From: Actinomycetota bacterium | GTDB lineage: Bacteria > Actinomycetota > Actinomycetes > Actinomycetales > Microbacteriaceae | Direction: 5' to 3' | Assembly (NCBI GenBank): GCA_018895315.1 | Contig: JAHIOK010000441.1 | Location: 1-11,974 of the forward strand | Length of the DNA: 11,974 nt | In this document: piece after piece, positions 746 through 11,974 of the stretch | How positions within the stretch are numbered: the first letter of the stretch is position 1 | Layout of the letters: each line of letters begins with the position of its first letter | Made by a program: the position numbers and the translations under genes | Notes under the pieces: model-generated | What the model was told of the DNA's origin: nothing | Databases searched by the model: none | Seen by the model: only the letters and a program-made list of their open reading frames with translations

Positions 746-1729
746 TCACAGATCCAGGATGAGTCGCGGGCTCACCGCGCGGGAGATGCACGGGAACATG
801 CAGGTGGATGCGGCGCGCTCCTGTGCTGTGAGGAGGGCATCGCGGTGGTCGGGGATGCCCGAGACCACGCCCGTCTCGCAGGTACCGCAGATGCCCTGTG
901 CGCACGAGGTGAGCACATCGATGCCCACACGGTGCAGAGCCTCGACGACCGTCTCTTCTGCGGAGACGGTGACGACCTGCCCGCTTCCCGCCAGTTCGAC
1001 TTCGAATGCCGCACGCACCTTGCTCGCCTCTGCACTCGCGGTGAAACGCTCCCAGCGCACGCGGGCCGCCCCGCGCGCGTCGTGCCAGCGAGCCATCTCG
1101 TCGAGCAGCCGCTCCGGCCCGCAGGCGTACACGGCGGTGCCAGCGTCCCGCCCCGGCATCCGGCTCGCGAGTGCAAGCGGGCCGTGTTCGTCTCGCAGGT
1201 GCACCTGCACCCGATCGCCGTAGGCGGCGAGTTCGTCGAGATAGGCCATGCGCGAACGGGTGCCCCCGAGGTACAGCAGCTTCCAGGTGTCACCGAGCAA
1301 CTCGGCCTGATGGATCATCGGAAGGATCGGAGTGATGCCGATACCCCCGGCGATGAAGAGGTAGTCGGATGCGGGGTGAAGGCGAAAGTTGTTGCGGGGG
1401 CCGCCGAATCCCACTGTGTCGCCGACGCGCAGACGTGTGTGCAGGTACTCCGAACCGCCGCGGCCCGCGCGATCGCGCTGCACAGCGATGGTGAAGGCAT
1501 ACGGATCCCAGCGGTCGCCGAGCAGGCTGTACTGCCGGGTGGTTCCGTTCGGGAGCACGATGTCGATGTGCGCGCCCGGTGCCCAGTCGGGAAGTCTCTC
1601 GCCTTCGGGGCGCGACAGCGTCAGTTCGATCACGTCACGGACCACCTCGCGCCGCGCGCGCACCTCGAGGGTTCCGCCGTGTGCGCTGTTTCGTCGAGTG
1701 ATCGTAAAATCCGTCGTCGTCGTCGACAT
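746..1729 (-). CDS. Phthalate-dioxygenase-reductase-type electron transfer protein for the P450
   Basis: A 327-residue single-chain reductase passing electrons from NAD(P)H through flavin and [2Fe-2S] to an oxygenase. Domain order is flavin, NAD, ferredoxin. The flavin motif RQYS is at 65-68, the nucleotide-binding AGGIGITP at 127-134, and CGP at 203-205. The C-terminal plant-type cluster is ligated by C276, C281, C284 and C314 in the CxxxxCxxC...C pattern. This is the phthalate dioxygenase reductase / VanB order, not the N-terminal ferredoxin order of GcoB. The ATG at 1729 was chosen because AGGAGG lies 4-6 nt upstream and the flavin domain begins soon after; the frame stays open to 1924 but that extension reads like non-coding sequence. 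It is the first gene of an operon with the P450 and is very probably its redox partner. I recall a comparable CYP199-reductase pair (PbdA/PbdB) in Rhodococcus. It could also serve other oxygenases. Confidence 0.9.
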   Translation of the reverse strand: MSTTTTDFTITRRNSAHGGTLEVRARREVVRDVIELTLSRPEGERLPDWAPGAHIDIVLPNGTTRQYSLLGDRWDPYAFTIAVQRDRAGRGGSEYLHTRLRVGDTVGFGGPRNNFRLHPASDYLFIAGGIGITPILPMIHQAELLGDTWKLLYLGGTRSRMAYLDELAAYGDRVQVHLRDEHGPLALASRMPGRDAGTAVYACGPERLLDEMARWHDARGAARVRWERFTASAEASKVRAAFEVELAGSGQVVTVSAEETVVEALHRVGIDVLTSCAQGICGTCETGVVSGIPDHRDALLTAQERAASTCMFPCISRAVSPRLILDL

Positions 1730-1863: not shown

Positions 1864-2727
1864 ATGGCGCGGGGTTCGGCGGGTGAGTCGGTGCTGAGTC
1901 GCCACTTGCGCGTGCTCGGCGCATTCGACGTGCAGCATCCTTTCCTCACGCTCGCCGAGCTCACGGGACGCGCCGGGCTCGCAGCATCCAGCGCCCATCG
2001 CCTGGTCGGCGAACTTGCCGAGCAGGGGCTGCTCGAACGTCTGCCCGATCGCACCTATCGCCTGGGATCACGGTTGTTCGAGCTGGCGAGTCGCACGCCG
2101 GGCGCCCTCGGCCTGCGCGAGATCGCGGGACCGATCCTGCGGGAGGTGCACAGCCGCGTGCGGCAGCACACTCAGCTCGGCATCCGTAGCGGACGCGACG
2201 TGCTCTACGTCGAGCGGATGTCGGCGCGGGATGCCGTCGTCAACGTGACCCTCGTCGGTGGGCGTATCCCGCTGCACGCGTCATCGGTGGGCTTGGTGCT
2301 GCTCGCCCACGCTCCGGCAGATCTCGTCGATGATGTGCTCGATCGCGAGCTCGTCACCTTCACCACCGAGACCATCCGCACCGGCGCAGAGCTTCGCGCC
2401 CGGCTGGGCCGGGTGCGTGCTGACGGGCACGCCGTCACCGACGGCCACATCCACCTCGATGCTCGTGGCGTCGCGGTACCGATCTTCGGCGCGCATGGCG
2501 AAGTCGTCGCCGGCGTGGGTCTCGTCGTCCCCAACGACGGCAGCTCACCGGCCGCGCACATCGAGCTGCTCACCCGTGCCGCGGTCGCGATCTCGTCGGC
2601 ACTCCGAGACGCCTACCTGCCTCCGGGTGATGCATCGGCACCACCCGGAGCGCGGTTGCGGCCGTTGGTCAGTTCTTCCACGAGTTCCATGAAGTACCTG
2701 GCCGAGATCGCCGTCTCTCTCGACTGA
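1864..2727 (+). CDS. IclR-family transcriptional regulator
   Basis: A 287-residue regulator. An N-terminal winged helix-turn-helix spans about residues 10-68 (LTLAELTGRAGLAASSAHRL, then the GLLERLPDRTYRLGSRLFEL wing). An IclR effector-binding domain follows from about 85 to 250 (LREIAGPILREVHSRV, DVLYVERM, RIPLHASSVG, VAVPIFGAHGEVVAGVGLVV). The ATG at 1864 has GAGGAG 5 nt upstream. It is divergent from the P450/reductase operon, so it probably controls that operon and itself from the palindrome at 1807-1821. IclR regulators of aromatic catabolism usually respond to an aromatic acid or ring-cleavage product; the ligand here is unknown. Odd feature: about 35 extra, low-complexity residues at the C-terminus after the normal end of the domain (near YLPPGDASAPPG), so the family part is about 250 residues. 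The stop lies 7 nt from the stop of the convergent LigM paralogue. Confidence 0.9.
   Translation: MARGSAGESVLSRHLRVLGAFDVQHPFLTLAELTGRAGLAASSAHRLVGELAEQGLLERLPDRTYRLGSRLFELASRTPGALGLREIAGPILREVHSRVRQHTQLGIRSGRDVLYVERMSARDAVVNVTLVGGRIPLHASSVGLVLLAHAPADLVDDVLDRELVTFTTETIRTGAELRARLGRVRADGHAVTDGHIHLDARGVAVPIFGAHGEVVAGVGLVVPNDGSSPAAHIELLTRAAVAISSALRDAYLPPGDASAPPGARLRPLVSSSTSSMKYLAEIAVSLD
2621..2650. repeat. Inverted repeat (9-bp arms) inside the iclR 3' end
   Basis: CTCCGGGTG (2621-2629) and CACCCGGAG (2642-2650) are perfect inverted arms with a 12-nt loop, lying within the extra C-terminal coding sequence of the IclR gene. There is no room for a hairpin in the 7-nt gap between the two convergent stops. 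This stem could end transcripts arriving from the minus-strand LigM paralogue. Equally, it may be only a by-product of proline/glycine-rich coding. There is no T-tract on either side. Confidence 0.3.
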
Positions 2728-2734
2728 GCCCGGA

Positions 2735-4096
2735 TCAGTTCTTGCGGTAGTTCTCGCGGGCGAACGCGGAGTAGGGCGCTGCCTCGACCGTCGCGCGGAT
2801 CTGCACCTGACGGTGGGCCTCGACGGCGGGCTTGCGGGAGTTGGGTTCTTCGCCCCACACCACGACCACCTCGGTGCCGGGGGCGGCGTGCGCGGGGTCG
2901 ATGCTCGCGAGGGACGCGAACACCTGCTCGTTGGTGATGTAGCCGGCGTCGTGCGAGATGCCGACCTCCACTCCATCCACGAGTACGCGGTCGACCTGGT
3001 AGACGCCGTAGCGGGCCTTCGGGAAATCGATGTACTTCGCCGGCATCCCGGGCTCGAGCAGGGTGCGCTGGGTGGCGGCGACGTCGTCGGCGCTCCACAC
3101 CAGGGTGACCTTCTTCCGCTGTTCAGCGGCGGCATGCACCTCGAGGGCGGCCCTCCCGATGAAGTCGTGGTCGAACGCGACGCTGCGGCCGTAGCCGAGG
3201 TCGTACGGCGTCAGGTAGTAGTCCTCGATGTCGTCGGACGTGTGGCTTCCTGCGAGCGAACCCACCCGGTTCGACGGGAGCCACTGCAGGTAATCGGCGG
3301 TGCCCTCACCGGTGAAGATCGCGGGCAGCGGCGAAGGCACCCAGGCAGACTCGAGGTTCGCCGACGAGTAGGCCTTCGACCCGACGAGCACGAGTCCGAA
3401 CTCCTCGCCTGCCTCGATGATGGCCGATCGCACGTGCTCGCCTTCCGCCCAGGGGCCGAAGAGCTCGAATCCCGGCTGCCCCGCCATCCCATGGCGGAGG
3501 GAACGCACGGTGAGCCCGGCGATCGTGAAGGTCGTCATCCCGAAGAACTTCGTGGGGGGCACCGGTGCGCCGGTGAGCTTCTCCATCAGCGCCAGTGCCT
3601 GCGGCCCCTGGATCTCGTAGCGATAGAGCTTCGGGTCGCCGGAGCGCATGAGGGAGTTGCCGTCGCGCTCGAACGTCACGTCGTAGTCGCCGGTCTCGCC
3701 GATGTACTGCACCCAGTCGAGCACCATGAACCACCCGACCAGGTCGAAGACATTGTCTTCGAGGTGGAAGAGGATGGCGTCGCCGATCAGAAACCCCTCG
3801 TGATTGACCGCGACGAACTGCTTCGCGGCATCCACCGGGAAGTTGGCGAAGCTGTTCACACCGGTGTCGGAGAGCAGTCGCAGGGCATCGGGCCCCGAGA
3901 TGAACAGGTCGGTCATGTGGTGGGACTGGTCGAGCAGAGCGACGCTGTCGCGCCACGCGCGCTGCTCAGAACGCCAGTTGCTGAACTCCGGGGTGACGGG
4001 GAAGATCGTCGGGCGCGCCTGCGCGTTGCGGAGCAATTCGACCGGACTCCCGGCGCGGGCAATGGCGTCGGCGGCGGATTCGACGGACTGTGACAC
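2735..4096 (-). CDS. Divergent LigM-like tetrahydrofolate-dependent O-demethylase paralogue (GcvT fold)
   Basis: A 453-residue protein of the aminomethyltransferase-like family, clearly homologous over its full length to the LigM-type product at 5228-6631 ([63 protein letters not shown]). The GTG start at 4096 has AAGGAG 8 nt upstream; earlier in-frame codons have no comparable site. LigM-type enzymes transfer an aryl O-methyl to tetrahydrofolate in the cytoplasm. The catalytic tyrosine is kept (Y243 in KAYSS), as is the HH pair at H59/H60. Two substrate-site positions differ: the LigM Tyr31 position is F32 and the Arg122 position is W122. The folate role is likely retained but the methyl-donor substrate is probably not vanillate. 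Candidates are syringate, 3-O-methylgallate, a neutral guaiacyl compound, or a non-aromatic methyl donor. It is monocistronic and divergent from a LysR regulator. Confidence 0.85.
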   Translation of the reverse strand: MSQSVESAADAIARAGSPVELLRNAQARPTIFPVTPEFSNWRSEQRAWRDSVALLDQSHHMTDLFISGPDALRLLSDTGVNSFANFPVDAAKQFVAVNHEGFLIGDAILFHLEDNVFDLVGWFMVLDWVQYIGETGDYDVTFERDGNSLMRSGDPKLYRYEIQGPQALALMEKLTGAPVPPTKFFGMTTFTIAGLTVRSLRHGMAGQPGFELFGPWAEGEHVRSAIIEAGEEFGLVLVGSKAYSSANLESAWVPSPLPAIFTGEGTADYLQWLPSNRVGSLAGSHTSDDIEDYYLTPYDLGYGRSVAFDHDFIGRAALEVHAAAEQRKKVTLVWSADDVAATQRTLLEPGMPAKYIDFPKARYGVYQVDRVLVDGVEVGISHDAGYITNEQVFASLASIDPAHAAPGTEVVVVWGEEPNSRKPAVEAHRQVQIRATVEAAPYSAFARENYRKN

Positions 4097-4246: not shown

Positions 4247-5188
4247 GTGGATCTGAACCTCGTCCGGGTCTTCGTGGCGATCTACGAGACCCGCAGTCTC
4301 ACGACGACCGCGGCACGCCTCTACGTCACGCAGCCCGCCGTCAGTCAGGCGCTGGGAAGACTGCGGCGCGAGCTCGATGACCCTCTGTTCGAGCGCGCCG
4401 GTCGGCAGATGCAGCCGACGCCGCTCGCCGAGAGCGTCTTCCCGGGCTTTCGCGAGTCGATCACGCGCATCGACCGCACCCTCGACGCCGTGCGCGGTTT
4501 CGATCCGTCCGATTCGCACAAGCTGTTCCGCCTTGCGCTGTCGGAGCTGGGAGAGATCGGCTGGCTGCCCGCGATCCTCCGCGCTGTGCGTCGGCGCGCG
4601 CCGCATCTGCGCATCGAGGTGGTTCCGCTGGACATCGCACAGCTCTCCGAGTGGCTGGCGCGCGGCGTCGTCGATCTCGCGATCACCCCCGCCGGTCTTC
4701 CCGGGGCGTTCGACCATGTGCCCCTGAAATCGCAGGCGTACGGTGCGGCGATGTCGGCGCAGCACCCGCTCGCCGTGGGCGACCTCGATCTGGACGCCTA
4801 CCTCGCCGCCGCCCACGTGAGCGTGGCCAGCGATTCCGGGGCGGCCATGCTCGAGTCGGCGCAGCGCAGAGCCGGCGCCATCGTCTCTCCCCAGGTGGCC
4901 GTGCGCCATTTCGCGACGCTGCCACCCCTGCTGGCGGCGAGCCGCGAGCTGATCGCGACCGTGCCCGACACGATCGCGGCCGGCTGGGCGACGACGTGGC
5001 CGCTCGTCGTTCGGCCGTTGCCGTTCGCGATGCCCCCCGTCGAACTGTGCCTGTACCGCCGTGCGACCACTCAGCAGACCGCGGCGCTCGACTGGCTGTT
5101 CGCGACGGTGTCGCAGGCCGTGCGCGGCTCATCGGGGCAGTTCTTCGTGATCCACGGAGACGCGCTGGCTGAGACGGAGCACGCGTAG
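4247..5188 (+). CDS. LysR-family transcriptional regulator between the two ligM-type genes
   Basis: 313 residues from the GTG at 4247. The N-terminal helix-turn-helix covers about residues 3-60 (NLVRVFVAIYETRSLTTTAA, then RLYVTQPAVSQALGRLRREL and PLFERAGRQMQPTPLAE). A periplasmic-binding-protein-like effector domain follows from about residue 88 to the end. I chose 4247 because LysR proteins characteristically begin with (M/V)DLNL just before the first helix and the length is then typical. ATG 4211 is in frame, but its AAGG abuts the start codon. The gene is divergent from the LigM paralogue at 2735-4096 and convergent with ligM across a hairpin terminator. Its likeliest target is the divergent paralogue and itself, through the box at 4184-4198. 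The effector is unknown; an aromatic acid is plausible from context. Confidence 0.87.
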   Translation: MDLNLVRVFVAIYETRSLTTTAARLYVTQPAVSQALGRLRRELDDPLFERAGRQMQPTPLAESVFPGFRESITRIDRTLDAVRGFDPSDSHKLFRLALSELGEIGWLPAILRAVRRRAPHLRIEVVPLDIAQLSEWLARGVVDLAITPAGLPGAFDHVPLKSQAYGAAMSAQHPLAVGDLDLDAYLAAAHVSVASDSGAAMLESAQRRAGAIVSPQVAVRHFATLPPLLAASRELIATVPDTIAAGWATTWPLVVRPLPFAMPPVELCLYRRATTQQTAALDWLFATVSQAVRGSSGQFFVIHGDALAETEHA

Positions 5189-5227: not shown

Positions 5228-7543
<2,316 letters not shown>

Positions 7544-7547
<4 letters not shown>

Positions 7548-8248
7548 CCCACGTCATCGTCACCGACATCGAACGAGCGGATGCCGCGACGATCGATGCC
7601 CTCGGAGTGCACGGAGTCGCCACCGTGCACGAAGCGATGGGGCGCACGGGGCTCGCCGGCCCCGCGCTGCGACCGATCCAGGACGGTACGCGCATCGCTG
7701 GTTCGGCGGTGACCGTCCTCAGCTGGCCCGGCGACAACCTCATGATCCACGCCGCTGTCGAGCAGTGTCAGGCGGGCGACATCCTCGTCGTGGCGACGGT
7801 GTCACCGTCGCTCGACGGTTCGTTCGGCGAGCTGTTCGCGACGGCCCTGCACCATCGCGGCGTGCAAGGGCTCGTGACCACGGGCGGAGTGCGGGATGTC
7901 GTGGACCTCCGCGCGATGGGTTTCCCGGTGTGGTCGGCCGCGGTGAATGCGCAGGGGACGGTGAAGGCGACACCCGGCTCGGTCAACGTGCCGATCGTTG
8001 TCGGCGGCACCACCGTGCGACCAGGTGACGTGATCGTGGCGGACGACGACGGCGTGCTGTGCGTGCCGCGAGCGACCGCGGCTGAGGCGCTCGCCGCCTC
8101 GGATGCCCGCGTCGAACGCGAGGCTGCGGCTCGCGCCGACTATCAGTCCGGTGGGCTCAGCCTCGATCGCAACAAGCTCCGCGGAGTGTTGCGCGACCTC
8201 GGGGTGACTTATATGACGCAAGCGGAATATGACGATGGCGGTCGCTGA
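7544..8248 (+). CDS. galC: 4-carboxy-4-hydroxy-2-oxoadipate aldolase, RraA-like class II
   Basis: 234 residues from the GTG at 7544, which overlaps the galB stop by 4 nt. This is the HMG/CHA aldolase (GalC/LigK) branch of the RraA-like fold. It cleaves CHA to pyruvate and oxaloacetate with a divalent metal and often also decarboxylates oxaloacetate. Visible signatures are GVHGVATVHEAMG (21-33), GELFATALHHRGVQGLVTTG (95-114), and GGVRD with R117 and D118, the expected pyruvate- and metal-binding pair. An acidic residue, E96, sits 21 positions before R117, the spacing of the D-x20-R-D aldolase motif, with Glu in place of Asp. The C-terminal helix ends with LGVTYMTQAEYDDGGR. Its last 20 nt overlap galD. 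The order B-C-D matches sequential action on one intermediate. RraA (RNase E inhibitor) is excluded by the motif and context. Confidence 0.92.
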
Positions 8249-9296
8249 CGGCATCCGCTGCCTCCTGATGCGCGGCGGCACATCGAAGGGCGCCTATTTC
8301 TTGGCCGACGACCTGCCGGCAGATGCGGCGACCAGGGCCGACCTGCTGCTGCGGATCATGGGCTCGCCCGATCCGCGACAGATCGACGGCCTCGGCGGGG
8401 CCCACCCGCTGACGAGCAAGGTCGCCGTCGTTTCGACCTCGACCGTGGCCGGGATCGATATCGACTACCTGTTTCTGCAGGTCGGTGTGGATGCGGCATC
8501 CGTCAGCGACAGCCAGACCTGCGGCAATCTGCTCGCGGGCATCGGCCCGTTCGCGGTGGAACGCGGTCTCGTCGCGCCGGGCGATGCGCAGACCACCGTA
8601 CGCATCCGGATGGTCAACACCGGCGATGTCGCGACCGCGCGATTCGCGACCCCCGGAGGCCGTGTCGACTACGACGGCGAGACCGCGATAGACGGGGTGC
8701 CGGGCACCGCCGCTCCGATCGAGCTCGAGATCGGCGGGGGAGCGAAGCCGCTCCTGCCGACCGGAAACGTGGCCGACGTGATCGAGGGACACACCGTGAC
8801 CCTCATCGACAACGGGATGCCGGTGGTGCTGCTGCGCGCCGAGGAGTTCGGCGTCTCGGGGGATGAGGCCCCGGCCGGGCTGGAAGATCGAGCCGACCTG
8901 TGCACGGCCGTCGAGCGCATCCGCGTCCTCGCGGGGCCGCTCATGGCGCTCGGCGATGTCGCGGATACGACGGTGCCGAAGATGATTCTGCTCTCGGCCC
9001 CGACCCGCGGCGGCGCGATCTCGACGCGTGCGTTCATCCCCGCCCGCGTGCACCCCGCGATCGGTGTGCTGATGGCGGCATCGGTGGCCGCCGGCATCCG
9101 CATTCCCGGGGCGGTGGGGTTCGACATCGCGGTGCCGTCCGCGACGGGACCCGACGACATCGAGCATCCGAGTGGTGCTTTTCCCTCGCACGTGACCGTG
9201 CGGAACGACGGCTCCCGCTGGCACGCGACCTCGCTGTCGGTGCGCACCGCTCGCCCTATCTTCGACGGTGTCGTGTTTCCGCGACCCCGTCTCTAA
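8229..9296 (+). CDS. galD: 4-oxalomesaconate tautomerase, PrpF family
   Basis: 355 residues, the normal size for GalD. It belongs to the PrpF/diaminopimelate-epimerase-like fold and interconverts tautomers of 4-oxalomesaconate so that GalB can hydrate it. Family signatures are IRCLLMRGGTSKGAYF (9-24), GSPDPRQIDGLGGAHPLTSK (45-64), SDSQTCGNLLAGIGPFAVE (93-111), RMVNTG, and ALGDVADTTVPKM near residue 240. K64 and C98 match the positions of the catalytic Lys and Cys reported for PrpF. Two ATGs lie 6 nt apart (8229 and 8235); both are inside the galC coding end, giving a 20- or 14-nt overlap with only a weak GCGGA upstream, so coupling to galC translation is likely. A 24-nt gap separates it from the downstream dioxygenase gene. 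Confidence 0.92.
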   Translation: MTMAVADGIRCLLMRGGTSKGAYFLADDLPADAATRADLLLRIMGSPDPRQIDGLGGAHPLTSKVAVVSTSTVAGIDIDYLFLQVGVDAASVSDSQTCGNLLAGIGPFAVERGLVAPGDAQTTVRIRMVNTGDVATARFATPGGRVDYDGETAIDGVPGTAAPIELEIGGGAKPLLPTGNVADVIEGHTVTLIDNGMPVVLLRAEEFGVSGDEAPAGLEDRADLCTAVERIRVLAGPLMALGDVADTTVPKMILLSAPTRGGAISTRAFIPARVHPAIGVLMAASVAAGIRIPGAVGFDIAVPSATGPDDIEHPSGAFPSHVTVRNDGSRWHATSLSVRTARPIFDGVVFPRPRL

Positions 9297-9320: not shown

Positions 9321-10271
9321 ATGACCGACTACACCTCGTTCGATGTCGCCCACCTCGCGAACGTCGAGCTGCTCACCCCTGAGTTCGAGAAGAGCCTGTG
9401 GTTCTTCCGCGACCTGCTGGCGATGCGGGTCGTCGCCGAGGCAGGCGACTCGGTATACCTCCGCACGTGGGACGAGTACGAGCTCTACACGATCAAACTC
9501 ACGGCGTCGGAAGCCGCGGGCGTGGGGCGCACCTCGCTCCGGGCTTCGTCGCAAGAGGCTCTCGAGCGCCGCGTCGCCGCGATCGATGAGACCGGGCTCG
9601 GCGAGGGCTGGGTCGACGGCGAAGTCGGCACCGGGCCGACCTACACGTTCCGCGACCCCGACGGCCATGCCTTCGGCATCTACTACGAGACCGAGCGCTA
9701 CGTCGCGGGAGACGAAGATCGACCGGCGTTGAAGAACCAGGCCTCCCGCTTTCCGGGTTTCGGCGTGAACGCGCGGCGCCTCGACCACATCAACTACCTC
9801 GCGAAAGATGTCGAGGCCAACGGCCAATTCATCGCCCGCGCTCTCGGCGGGCGGGAGAGCGAGCGCATTCGCAACGATGACGGCAAGTTCGCTGCCTGGT
9901 GGTTCCACTTCCAGAACAAGTCGTATGACGTCGTGTACTCCGACGATTGGAAGAAAGCGGGCAACCGGCTTCACCACATCGCGTTCGCTCCCGACACCCG
10001 CGAAGACATCCTCAAGGCAGCCGACATCTTCCTCGAGAACGGCATCCATATCGAGTCGGGTCCGCATAAGCACGCCATCAACCAGACCTTCTTCCTCTAC
10101 GTCTGGGAGCCCGGCGGCAACCGCATCGAGTTCGCCAACGCGGGCGCGCGCCTCTTGCTCGACCCCGACCAGCCGGTCGTGGAGTGGAGCCAGGAAGAGC
10201 GCAAGAAGGGCCAGGCCTGGGGGATGAAGACGATCGAGTCGTTCCACACCCACGGCACTCCTATCGTCTGA
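9321..10271 (+). CDS. VOC-superfamily (type I) extradiol ring-cleavage dioxygenase, substrate unknown
   Basis: 316 residues in two vicinal-oxygen-chelate domains (about 9-123 and 153-275). Aligned from memory to XylE catechol 2,3-dioxygenase with a nearly constant offset, the iron ligands are H156 (RRLDHINYL), H219 (NRLHHIAF) and E270 (GGNRIEF). The second-shell H251 and Y260 match XylE H246 and Y255. The third second-shell residue, XylE H199, is replaced by Y202 (KSYDVV). W194 matches a substrate-pocket Trp in homoprotocatechuate 2,3-dioxygenase. The ATG at 9321 follows GAGAGGA. It is the last gene of the galBCD operon, 24 nt after galD, and is followed by a terminator. Since GalD acts on the gallate ring-cleavage product, this enzyme is the natural candidate to make it, although known gallate dioxygenases are LigB-type. 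Catechol, protocatechuate or 3-O-methylgallate are alternatives. Confidence 0.87.
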   Translation: MTDYTSFDVAHLANVELLTPEFEKSLWFFRDLLAMRVVAEAGDSVYLRTWDEYELYTIKLTASEAAGVGRTSLRASSQEALERRVAAIDETGLGEGWVDGEVGTGPTYTFRDPDGHAFGIYYETERYVAGDEDRPALKNQASRFPGFGVNARRLDHINYLAKDVEANGQFIARALGGRESERIRNDDGKFAAWWFHFQNKSYDVVYSDDWKKAGNRLHHIAFAPDTREDILKAADIFLENGIHIESGPHKHAINQTFFLYVWEPGGNRIEFANAGARLLLDPDQPVVEWSQEERKKGQAWGMKTIESFHTHGTPIV

Positions 10272-10321: not shown

Positions 10322-10354
10322 CGACCGGGCAGGATGCCGCACCCTGCCCGGTCG
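10322..10354. terminator. Bidirectional hairpin terminator after the gal operon
   Basis: Perfect 12-bp arms, CGACCGGGCAGG (10322-10333) and CCTGCCCGGTCG (10343-10354), around a 9-nt loop. It lies in the 103-bp gap between the stop of the dioxygenase gene (plus) and the stop of the second LysR gene (minus). A very GC-rich stem in a convergent gap is best read as a two-way terminator. No T-tract follows. Nothing else is recognisable in this gap. Confidence 0.8.
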
Positions 10355-10374: not shown

Positions 10375-11316
10375 CTAACCGAGCAGCGCCACACCGAAGC
10401 CGGCAACAACAGCCCGCAGTTCAGCGAGGTACGTCTGTGCCTGCTCGGTGAGCGGGATCGCGGAATGGCCGATCCAGCCGATCTCGATGCGTTCCTCGAC
10501 GTCGAGCGGGATAGCGACGATCTCGGGGTCGAGGTCGTCGCTGATGATGCCCGTCGAGATCGTGTAGCCGTCGAGCCCGATCATCAGGTTGAAGATGGTC
10601 GCGCGGTCTGAGACCCGGATCTCCTGCGTGCTCGACAGAGTGGAGAGGATCTCCTCGGCGAAGTAGAAGGAGTTGTTCGCCCCCTGGTCGAAGGTGAGCC
10701 GCGGCGAGTCGGCGAGATCGGCGAGCGTGACGCGATCTCGCGAGGCGAGTGGGTTCTTCCGGGCGATGAAGATGTGCGGCTCGGCGAGGAAAAGCGGGCG
10801 GAACGCGAGCCCGGAGTCCCTGAGCAGTTTGTCGATGACGTTCCGATTGAAGTCGTTGCGGAAGAGGATGCCGAGTTCGCTGCGGAGCGTGCGTACGTCT
10901 TCGATGATGTCCCAGGTGCGAGTCTCGCGTAACGAGAACTCGTACTCGGCCGCCCCGCTGCCCTTCACCATCCGGACGAACGCATCGACAACGAACGAGT
11001 AATGCTGCGCCGAAACCCCGAGCAGGCGTCGCGACGGCGGCCGCCCGAGGTAACGCTGCTCCAGGAGCGCTGCCTGTTCGGTGACCTGCCTCGCATATCC
11101 GAGAAACTCCGCACCGTCGGCGGTGAGTGTCACCCCGCGGGCGGAGCGCAGGAGGAGTGCGCGACCCACCCGCGCCTCGAGATCTTTCATCGCCGCGGAC
11201 ATGGTCGGCTGCGAGACATAGAGGAGGTCGGCCGCGGCGCTGATAGAGCCTTCCGCGGAGACTTCGATGAAGTAGTGGAGCTGCTGCAGCGTGATGCCGC
11301 CGGGGGCCCGTGCCAT
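10375..11316 (-). CDS. LysR-family transcriptional regulator, divergent from the mesX-like gene
   Basis: 313 residues. The N-terminal helix-turn-helix is at about 9-66 (LQQLHYFIEVSAEGSISAAA, LLYVSQPTMSAAMKDLEARV, then LLLRSARGVTLTADGAEFL). An effector-binding domain follows from about 95 (LGVSAQHYSFVVDAFVRMVK, ...DVRTLRSELGILFRNDFN, ...YTISTGIISDDL). The ATG at 11316 has no Shine-Dalgarno, but a TATAGG -10-like element ends 8 nt upstream, so the mRNA may be leaderless. It is convergent with the gal operon across a terminator and divergent from the DUF1852/mesX-like gene, so it more likely controls methionine synthesis than aromatic breakdown. LysR regulators such as MetR and CmbR commonly control methionine or cysteine genes. 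The effector is unknown. Confidence 0.87.
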   Translation of the reverse strand: MARAPGGITLQQLHYFIEVSAEGSISAAADLLYVSQPTMSAAMKDLEARVGRALLLRSARGVTLTADGAEFLGYARQVTEQAALLEQRYLGRPPSRRLLGVSAQHYSFVVDAFVRMVKGSGAAEYEFSLRETRTWDIIEDVRTLRSELGILFRNDFNRNVIDKLLRDSGLAFRPLFLAEPHIFIARKNPLASRDRVTLADLADSPRLTFDQGANNSFYFAEEILSTLSSTQEIRVSDRATIFNLMIGLDGYTISTGIISDDLDPEIVAIPLDVEERIEIGWIGHSAIPLTEQAQTYLAELRAVVAGFGVALLG

Positions 11317-11345
11317 AGCTTGAGCCTATAGGAATGCATAGCTTG
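11314..11345. repeat. Two direct copies of CATAGCTTG flanking CCTATAGG
   Basis: CATAGCTTG occurs at 11314-11322 and again at 11337-11345, 23 bp start to start (about two helical turns), with the palindrome CCTATAGG between them. CTAT (11326-11329) and ATAG (11338-11341) also form a short dyad. All of this lies in the narrow divergent lysR/mesX-like gap and overlaps the lysR start codon, so bound protein could block lysR expression. These are candidate recognition sites for the adjacent LysR regulator; binding is inferred. Confidence 0.4.
11325..11330 (-). promoter_or_regulatory. TATAGG -10-like element for leaderless lysR transcript
   Basis: On the minus strand TATAGG ends 8 nt before the ATG at 11316, the distance at which transcription would start at or next to the A of the start codon. 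No Shine-Dalgarno is present in those 8 nt. Leaderless mRNAs are common in actinobacteria. No strong -35 is visible. The element is part of the perfect palindrome CCTATAGG (11325-11332). Confidence 0.4.
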
Positions 11346-11440
11346 GCCTAGTTACCCGATAGTCGCCGGGTGGCTTCAGGATGGCGGTACAGACTTCCGC
11401 ACGGCCGAGCACGGCCGATCAGACACCGGATTGGCCGCTC

Positions 11441-11974
11441 ATGGCGAACGAATTCACGTTCAGCATCACCACCACCCGCTTCGACGAGGACTACTCGCCC
11501 TCGGACGATTCTCGGATCACCACGAACTTCGCCAATTTGGCACGAGGCGAGGACCGCCAGCAGAACCTCCGCAACGCCCTGACGATGATCGACCGCCGGT
11601 TCAACGACCTCGCGCAGCGTGACAACCCGTACGGGGACCGCTACACCGTCGAACTCGACATCGTCTCGGTTGCACTGGAGTTCACCGCGGGGGGCGAGGA
11701 CCAGGTGTTCCCGCTGCTCGAGGTCTTGGATACTCAGATCGTCGACCGGCGGACCGGCGAACGTCACCACGGGATCGTGGGGAACAACTTCTCGTCGTAC
11801 GTGCGCGATTTCGACTTCAGCGTGGTGCTCCCGGCGGCCACCGAGGCCGCCGGGAAGTTCACCGTGCCCGAGGACTTCGGCGATCTTCACGGCAAGCTGT
11901 TCCAGCACTTCCTTGATTCGGACGCATACCGGGATCGCTTCTCGACGTCGCCCGTCATCTGCATCAGCGTATCG
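11441..11974 (+). CDS. mesX: DUF1852 protein, MesX-like partner of oxygen-dependent methionine synthase (3' end missing)
   Basis: 178 residues are visible; the gene runs off the right edge (I expect roughly 320 in full). It matches the DUF1852 family as I remember it: NEFTFSI at the N-terminus, TRFDEDYSPSDDSRITTNFA, NLARGEDRQQNLRNAL, RRFNDLAQRDNPYGDRY, GIVGNNFSSYVRDFDFSVVL, EDFGDLHGKLF. DUF1852 was named MesX, a putative oxygenase needed by MesD, one of the folate-independent short MetE-like methionine synthases; mesD usually lies next to it and should be just beyond this window. I chose ATG 11441 because family members begin (M)xNEFTFSI. ATG 11381 is in frame and would add 20 residues; neither start has a clear ribosome site, and an in-frame stop at 11360 limits any further extension. 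It is divergent from a LysR regulator, probably its controller. Confidence 0.82.
   Translation, partial: MANEFTFSITTTRFDEDYSPSDDSRITTNFANLARGEDRQQNLRNALTMIDRRFNDLAQRDNPYGDRYTVELDIVSVALEFTAGGEDQVFPLLEVLDTQIVDRRTGERHHGIVGNNFSSYVRDFDFSVVLPAATEAAGKFTVPEDFGDLHGKLFQHFLDSDAYRDRFSTSPVICISVS

Follow-up and report, generated by a model that had tools for sequence, protein, structure and literature searches.

A VOC-fold extradiol dioxygenase encoded beside galB, galC and galD in an actinobacterium is a probable non-homologous counterpart of LigB-type gallate dioxygenases

Results

Gene content of the window

The window, that is the whole stretch of 11,974 nucleotides analysed here, is one entire contig (C405) of a MAG that is 72.8% complete. 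Its features are listed in Table 1. The first-pass annotation described galB-galC-galD followed by a VOC-type (type I) extradiol dioxygenase gene, and this arrangement was confirmed: galB, galC and galD overlap one another, and 24 nt separate the end of galD from the start codon of the VOC gene. The open reading frame of the VOC protein is intact, starts with ATG and encodes 316 amino acids. The sole match of GalB is PIG-L, the fold of GalB. GalC falls under the cut-off of the ligK_PcmE model (280.1 against 304.5). A terminator had also been placed after the VOC gene. A GC-rich stem of 12 bp does lie there (z -3.6 for a stretch of 109 nt), but it has no T-run and is absent from the consensus scan, so that only the hairpin part of the claim stands.

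Table 1. Features of the window
Feature	Position	Strand	Remarks
CYP199-like cytochrome P450	3..734	-	truncated at contig end; phmmer 9g9q CYP199 1e-103, CYP199A4 1.9e-78
PDR-type FAD/2Fe-2S reductase	746..1729	-	
IclR-type regulator	1864..2727	+	under every curated cut-off
DesA/LigM-like O-demethylase, candidate syringate O-demethylase	2735..4096	-	
LysR-type regulator	4250..5188	+	start codon provisional
ligM, vanillate/3-O-methylgallate O-demethylase	5228..6631	-	NF047885 908.8 bits, cut-off 580
Inverted-repeat element, candidate shared operator, divergent ligM/galB intergenic region	6719..6741	.	
galB, PIG-L-fold hydratase	6792..7547	+	PF02585; position between ligM and galC
galC, CHA aldolase / oxaloacetate decarboxylase	7544..8248	+	NF006731 309.8 bits, cut-off 179
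galD, 4-oxalomesaconate tautomerase	8229..9296	+	NF033377 (NCBIfam OMA_tautomer) 445.6 bits, cut-off 440
VOC-fold (type I) extradiol dioxygenase, proposed gallate dioxygenase	9321..10271	+	
Codon of metal ligand His156	9786..9788	+	alignment to HPCD
Codon of Tyr202, at HPCD His200 position	9924..9926	+	
Codon of metal ligand His219	9975..9977	+	alignment to HPCD
Codon of metal ligand Glu270	10128..10130	+	alignment to HPCD
GC-rich hairpin 3' of VOC gene	10322..10354	+	without T-run
Second LysR regulator gene	10375-11316		
MesX-family gene, 5' part	11381-11974		PF08908, 282.6 bits; truncated at other contig end

Pfam gives no match for the P450. Assignment to the GcoA type was considered and rejected; the nearest solved chains are CYP199. 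The chain 5x1i, a vanillate/3-O-methylgallate O-demethylase, is nearest to LigM and also to the DesA-like protein. The latter scores 574 bits against a DesA cut-off of 800 and 525.1 against the LigM cut-off of 580, and with both scores under the cut-offs it is a candidate syringate O-demethylase. At the other end of the contig, the MesX-family gene is divergent from the second LysR gene. It may help to use methyl groups placed on folate by LigM. On a Pantoea plasmid (L162), a cobalamin-independent methionine synthase gene lies near galD.

The inverted-repeat element between ligM and galB was compared with other loci by its mismatch count, and in 18 of 21 of them the match was better than the best of 200 shuffles. 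A regular-expression search for a shared operator gave matches in 4 of 22 regions. These results, from homologous regions and simple shuffling, are only suggestive of a conserved operator shared by the two divergent genes. The element overlaps the start of a TTGAC hexamer, and its core appears GntR-like by eye. A scan of the window genes showed none of the GntR type.

Family and relatives of the VOC protein

The VOC protein matches PF00903, its Pfam matches are to Glyoxalase families only, and by Pfam it is not a member of the LigB fold. phmmer aligned it with 3lm4, 1f1r and 1mpy across most of its length. Judged by sequence, it is a member of the type I (VOC) extradiol dioxygenase family. The best curated model is catechol 2,3-dioxygenase (TIGR03211), but the score of 298.2 bits is 22 bits short of the cut-off of 320.2; a homologue from Thermus thermophilus reaches 378.8 bits, above the cut-off. 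The nearest relatives come from Microbacterium and its kin, and the homologous genes are annotated in database records as 'catechol 2,3-dioxygenase' or 'VOC family protein'. Among solved chains the nearest is 9wgj, which is 51% identical in the alignment and was deposited under the name 'Catechol 1,2-dioxygenase'. Its nearest plasmid match is 56.6% identical, and no paper on 9wgj was found in the open-access literature.

In a class sample of 296 genomes, identity to the window protein falls from 56% to 36%. Intermediates exist outside that sample, namely L017 (46%) and two Thermus thermophilus proteins (39-42%), and these have His at position 202. In a maximum-likelihood tree of 80 rows, which carries a long-branch warning (for example for L142), the 61 rows with Tyr, 9wgj among them and the plasmid homologues not, form a clade with 99/96 support.

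Active site

In homoprotocatechuate 2,3-dioxygenase (HPCD), the residues H155, H214 and E267 are metal ligands. In the HMMER alignment they correspond to H156, H219 and E270 of the window protein, so the metal triad is complete. HPCD His200, the catalytic His equivalent to BphC His194, aligns with Tyr202, and the second-sphere catalytic His is thus missing from the window protein. The Tyr was present in 16 of the 17 proteins of alignment A1, in each of the 11 clade loci that the class sample supplied, in 10 of 10 plasmid homologues with 52-60% identity, in 9wgj, and in 80 of 80 loci of the wider scan described below (the best 80 of 576). All 16 outgroup loci of the class sample have His there, as do L017, both T. 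thermophilus proteins, 3lm4 and 1f1r. Among the same best 80 of 576, the metal triad is complete in 79, and Tyr260 and His251 are kept in every one.

Linkage with gal genes in the family

The first-pass annotation called for a survey of gal operons in the family of the window, and 299 genomes were used for it. The VOC protein has matches at 1e-80 or better in 17 of them and GalD in 39, with 33 above the model cut-off; a LigB-family protein occurs in 73. Among the 39 galD genomes, VOC adjoins galD directly in 16, LigB lies within 2.5 kb in 15, one (G156) has a LigJ/LigI-type cluster truncated by the contig end, and seven have neither. VOC and LigB occur together at the galD locus in none of the 39. 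In the 17th genome with a VOC match (G200, 46%), the gene lies away from galD and position 202 is His.

Leaving the window's own genome aside, regions of up to 20 kb were fetched for the remaining 15 VOC-galD genomes, for G200 and for 16 other loci, which include 6 of the 15 LigB-galD genomes. Ten regions, the window among them (with L018-L026; VOC 66-88% identical), all carry LigM; galB was not found in one of these (L025). The six others (L027-L032; VOC 57-60%) are without LigM and have a DUF1932 gene between galC and galD. The DUF1932 protein was considered as a substitute for LigC and rejected, because it occurs beside many kinds of gal loci and is therefore undiagnostic. Among the loci fetched from the class sample, the VOC gene has galC and/or galD at a distance of 1.5 kb or less in 11 of 11 clade members against 0 of 16 outgroup members, and the linkage is therefore more than chance.

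The loci L040 (G281), L044 (G121) and L041-L043 (tblastn) carry galD with galB and/or galC and DUF1932; VOC and LigB were not found nearby. The gene content of L040 and L044 includes ABC importers, but a dioxygenase was not seen. Loci of this type perhaps import 4-oxalomesaconate, or a related tricarboxylate, that other organisms produce.

The protocatechuate route and LigB-family enzymes

According to the first-pass annotation the window itself holds no LigAB/GalA, LigC or LigI. Whole-genome searches of the assembly agree for LigB, LigC and LigI in the window: they found no match to PF02900 (LigB) and none to LigI, and LigC-like paralogues lie on other contigs only. LigA, LigB, LigC, LigI and LigJ are likewise absent from all 15 VOC-galD regions outside the window. 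The six LigB-galD regions (L034-L039) have galC and galD alongside all five, with LigC truncated by the contig end in L039.

A genome search for LigB-fold gallate dioxygenase, ligC and ligI, proposed at the outset, was extended to all 16 VOC-galD genomes. LigC orthologues are present in 3 of 3 LigB controls at 79-100% identity, whereas the 16 VOC genomes have paralogues only, at 37% or less. LigI is present in the three controls at 81-100%; 14 of the 16 VOC genomes have none, and the other two give weak partial matches (G041, 35%; G199, 31%). pcaH was found above its cut-off in 15 of the 16 VOC genomes and in none of the three controls, and the window's MAG has a sub-cut-off piece only. A PF02900 match occurs in 4 of the 16 genomes, and the other 12 are without any. 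The four proteins, one 3-carboxyethylcatechol dioxygenase and three distant class III proteins, reach no more than 51-98 bits with the gallate dioxygenase model (cut-off 412), and none passes. VOC-galD genomes of the family can therefore handle protocatechuate via the ortho route, and they lack the two enzymes that would lead from CHMS to 4-oxalomesaconate. They are without a recognisable LigB gallate dioxygenase, a statement established for the family sample and not everywhere.

Wider survey

A scan of a collection of 84,980 species gave at least 596 stretches that matched the pattern, 576 of which encode a relative. The best 80 of the 576 were taken, and by record title these are 63 actinobacterial loci and 17 from Bradyrhizobium or its family. 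Absences carry little weight in seven of the 80, whose stretches do not reach 12 kb. Among the 63 actinobacterial loci in the best 80 of 576, galD was found in 53, galC in 53, galB in 40 and any of the three in 56. In 48 of the 63, galD is on the same strand as the VOC gene and no more than 200 bases from it, and LigJ occurs with galC and galD in 10. LigM is present in 22 and LigI in 6, in two of which (L089, L094) it is several kb away and towards the stretch's end; LigA, LigB and LigC are present in none.

Near the VOC gene of the remaining seven actinobacterial loci there is no gal gene. L072 (Microbacterium MAG, 70%), which belongs to these seven, has LigM and DesA-like genes and carries Arg in place of His219. 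The copy may be inactive, or the Arg may reflect an error in the sequence. L083 (Amycolatopsis, genome G590) has the order galB-galC-VOC, and its genome gave no galD match at 1e-40; either another tautomerase or a spontaneous step could serve there. The record of L084 is titled as a Rhodococcus MAG and classed under a cyanobacterial family, apparently through mismatched labels in the database.

All 17 Bradyrhizobium-type loci in the best 80 of 576 (L107-L112, L114, L116, L119-L122, L124-L126, L128 and L129; about 60% identity) have no gal genes within the flanks. galD lies elsewhere in 3 of 7 genomes of this type, and 4 of 7 are without galD at 1e-40. In L112 the neighbours of the VOC gene encode a HerA-type helicase and a molybdopterin/cytochrome c protein. 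A LigB-family protein of some kind occurs in 10 of 11 genomes (7 Bradyrhizobium, 4 actinobacteria), a count of family membership only. One of these matches is strong (294 bits, in G593, locus L070, without galD).

Plasmid loci and tannase

The window protein matched 301 plasmid records, and 12 loci were picked by eye for variety and fetched. In five of them the order is galB-VOC-galC-galD (Agrobacterium tumefaciens 186, Rhizobium SL42, Thioclava FTW29, A. vitis CG78 and a Paracoccaceae strain, the last with a small hypothetical gene after galB). A Nonomuraea plasmid has the actinobacterial gene order. On a Pantoea plasmid galD is about 6 kb from VOC, and on a Methylobacterium plasmid LigJ and ligK lie at a greater distance. 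Roseomonas L158 has VOC, a LigB-family protein and LigI together. Two homologues from Thermus thermophilus (42 and 39%) are encoded beside dmpG and acetaldehyde dehydrogenase, of the catechol meta pathway.

The VOC gene of a Thermus oshimai plasmid lies near galB and galC; GalD was not found in the stretch fetched (L160). A DUF6282 protein is encoded there at 10588-11505, in the operon between VOC/GntR and galB, and it may substitute for the tautomerase in this species.

In one of the five galB-VOC-galC-galD loci, that of a walnut Agrobacterium, a tannase gene (PF07519, 437.9 bits) lies downstream of galD. When this tannase was used for tblastn against the fetched regions, tannase-family genes were found in 5 of the 63 actinobacterial loci among the best 80 of 576 (L054, L060, L076, L099, L106), in 0 of 15 VOC-galD regions, and in none of the other family-sample regions. 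A PF07519 match occurs in 1 of 299 family genomes, more than 600 kb from the VOC gene of a VOC-galD genome (G164); this background is a rough yardstick, as three of the five tannase loci come from other families.

Discussion

Our analysis suggests that the VOC protein probably represents a family of gallate dioxygenases that is not homologous to, and is isofunctional with, the LigB-fold enzymes GalA and DesB. The substrate is read from the gene linkage and from what is absent. A non-homologous replacement for LigB-type gallate dioxygenase had been put forward in the first-pass annotation, and it gains support from the mutual exclusion of VOC and LigB at galD loci of the family sample, the absence of LigC and LigI orthologues there, the presence of pcaH, the insertion of the VOC gene into the gal operon, and tannase. 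In the proposed reaction, His156, His219 and Glu270 would hold iron (or manganese), which would bind two adjacent hydroxyls of gallate, and O2 would open the ring between C4 and C5 to give 4-oxalomesaconate directly. GalD, GalB and GalC would then convert 4-oxalomesaconate to pyruvate and oxaloacetate. The source of gallate on the contig may be methoxylated aromatic acids. The CYP199-like P450 would strip the para-methyl group, the DesA-like enzyme would turn syringate into 3-O-methylgallate, and LigM would turn this into gallate. In some relatives, tannase might release gallate from tannins.

GalA of Pseudomonas putida and DesB of Sphingobium SYK-6 catalyse the same reaction as proposed here and feed the same downstream steps (GalD/GalB/GalC or LigU/J/K), but they have the LigB fold, which is unrelated to VOC. 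The syringate route of SYK-6 (DesA, LigM, DesB, LigU/J/K) likewise combines tetrahydrofolate-dependent demethylation with a subsequent gallate-type ring cleavage. The window differs in that a VOC protein would cleave the ring, GalB takes the place of LigJ and a CYP199-like P450 lies beside the cluster. Catechol 2,3-dioxygenase and HPCD share with the window protein the fold family, the 2-His-1-Glu triad and Asn158, Trp194, His251 and Tyr260 (window numbering). In HPCD, Arg243 and Arg293 bind the substrate carboxylate; the window protein has Ser246 and Gly297 instead, and it differs further in Tyr202 and in its linkage to the gal operon. The chain 9wgj shares the Tyr motif and the clade with the window protein, although its deposited name implies a different reaction.

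The gallate dioxygenases in the literature consulted are of the LigB type. Those named in one paper are DesB and GalA (PMC12314914), and AromaDeg places gallate dioxygenases in the LigB superfamily (PMC4250580). A LigB-type PcaA from Pseudarthrobacter is described as cleaving protocatechuate and, at 44%, gallate (PMC8431788). Microbacterium is reported among veratric-acid degraders (PMC10602745). A VOC-type gallate dioxygenase was not found among the open-access titles and the openings of abstracts listed; subscription papers and preprints lie outside this scope, and an unseen report is possible.

Several observations speak against gallate as the substrate. The nearest curated model is that of catechol 2,3-dioxygenase and 9wgj is named after catechol. 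The Bradyrhizobium-type homologues and seven of the 63 actinobacterial ones lie without gal genes, the 15 VOC-galD regions of the family sample gave no tannase match, LigB-family proteins are common outside that sample, and Roseomonas L158 has both a LigB-family gene and VOC. The window's own MAG is also incomplete (72.8%).

The main alternative, possible but in our view unlikely, is that the enzyme mainly cleaves 3-O-methylgallate, either to the methyl ester of the ring-opened acid or to 2-pyrone-4,6-dicarboxylate, with gallate as a secondary substrate. LigM and the DesA-like gene adjoin, so this compound is plausibly made here, and SYK-6 employs several dioxygenases for it (PMC3962378, PMC12314914). 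The pyrone hydrolase LigI near VOC in six of the 63 actinobacterial loci (best 80 of 576), with no LigA, LigB or LigC, suits 3-O-methylgallate as well as gallate: unless LigC lies elsewhere in the genome, LigI without LigC implies that the substrate from which the pyrone came was oxygenated at C5. However, 57 of these 63 loci are without LigI within the flanks, and no enzyme of the DesC/D or MgaC/D type was recognised among the window proteins scanned. LigM would take the methyl group off first, and there is no evident source of 3-O-methylgallate in the loci that lack LigM or in the tannase-linked Agrobacterium locus.

A type I protocatechuate 4,5-dioxygenase, with OMA reached via CHMS and PDC, is very improbable. 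LigM also makes protocatechuate from vanillate, and homologues of GalC and GalD are common to the protocatechuate 4,5 route, but neither LigC nor LigI has an orthologue in any of the 16 VOC genomes (the two weak partial LigI matches aside), 15 of them have pcaH, and the fetched LigB-type protocatechuate loci carry LigI and LigC together. The chance is slighter still that the protein is an ordinary catechol 2,3-dioxygenase that stands beside galBCD by accident. TIGR03211 as best model and the name of 9wgj would fit this, but the protein lies under a cut-off which the T. thermophilus homologue, with its dmpG and acetaldehyde dehydrogenase neighbours, exceeds. The gal linkage is found in three phyla, with galD in two of them and with galB/galC in Thermus oshimai, and no gene of the catechol meta pathway was named among the window proteins scanned.

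With Tyr at position 202, normal activity is less certain. According to the DesB paper, a catalytic base stands beside the axial hydroxyl in all extradiol dioxygenases, His192 of DesB and His194 of BphC occupy the same position, and activity of DesB His192Phe was undetectable (PMC3962378). The Tyr clade is therefore unusual. DesB retains this His, whereas in the VOC clade, with its different fold, Tyr occupies the equivalent site; because DesB cleaves gallate with His, the replacement is not simply required by the substrate. Tyr in every clade member examined, in place of a His that is reported as essential in DesB, would fit a protein that no longer cleaves rings and acts in another way on a compound of the gal pathway, but this is the least probable reading of all, as the metal triad, Tyr260 and His251 are kept in the scan loci (79, 80 and 80 of the best 80 of 576) and no enzyme recognisable as ring-cleaving would be left at the family sample's VOC-galD loci.

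We consider it evenly balanced whether Actinomycetota, Proteobacteria and Thermus share a second, independently evolved family of gallate dioxygenases, of VOC fold, in which Tyr replaced the catalytic-base His and the third vicinal hydroxyl of the pyrogallol perhaps shares in the acid-base chemistry.

Gallic acid is a building block of tannins and a product of lignin breakdown. If our reading is true, the VOC family would provide a natural test of how essential the second-sphere His is in extradiol chemistry, and it would be a new tool for lignin upgrading. It would also fill the ring-cleavage step in the breakdown of tannins and syringyl lignin, both for many actinobacteria and for plant-associated Agrobacterium and Rhizobium.
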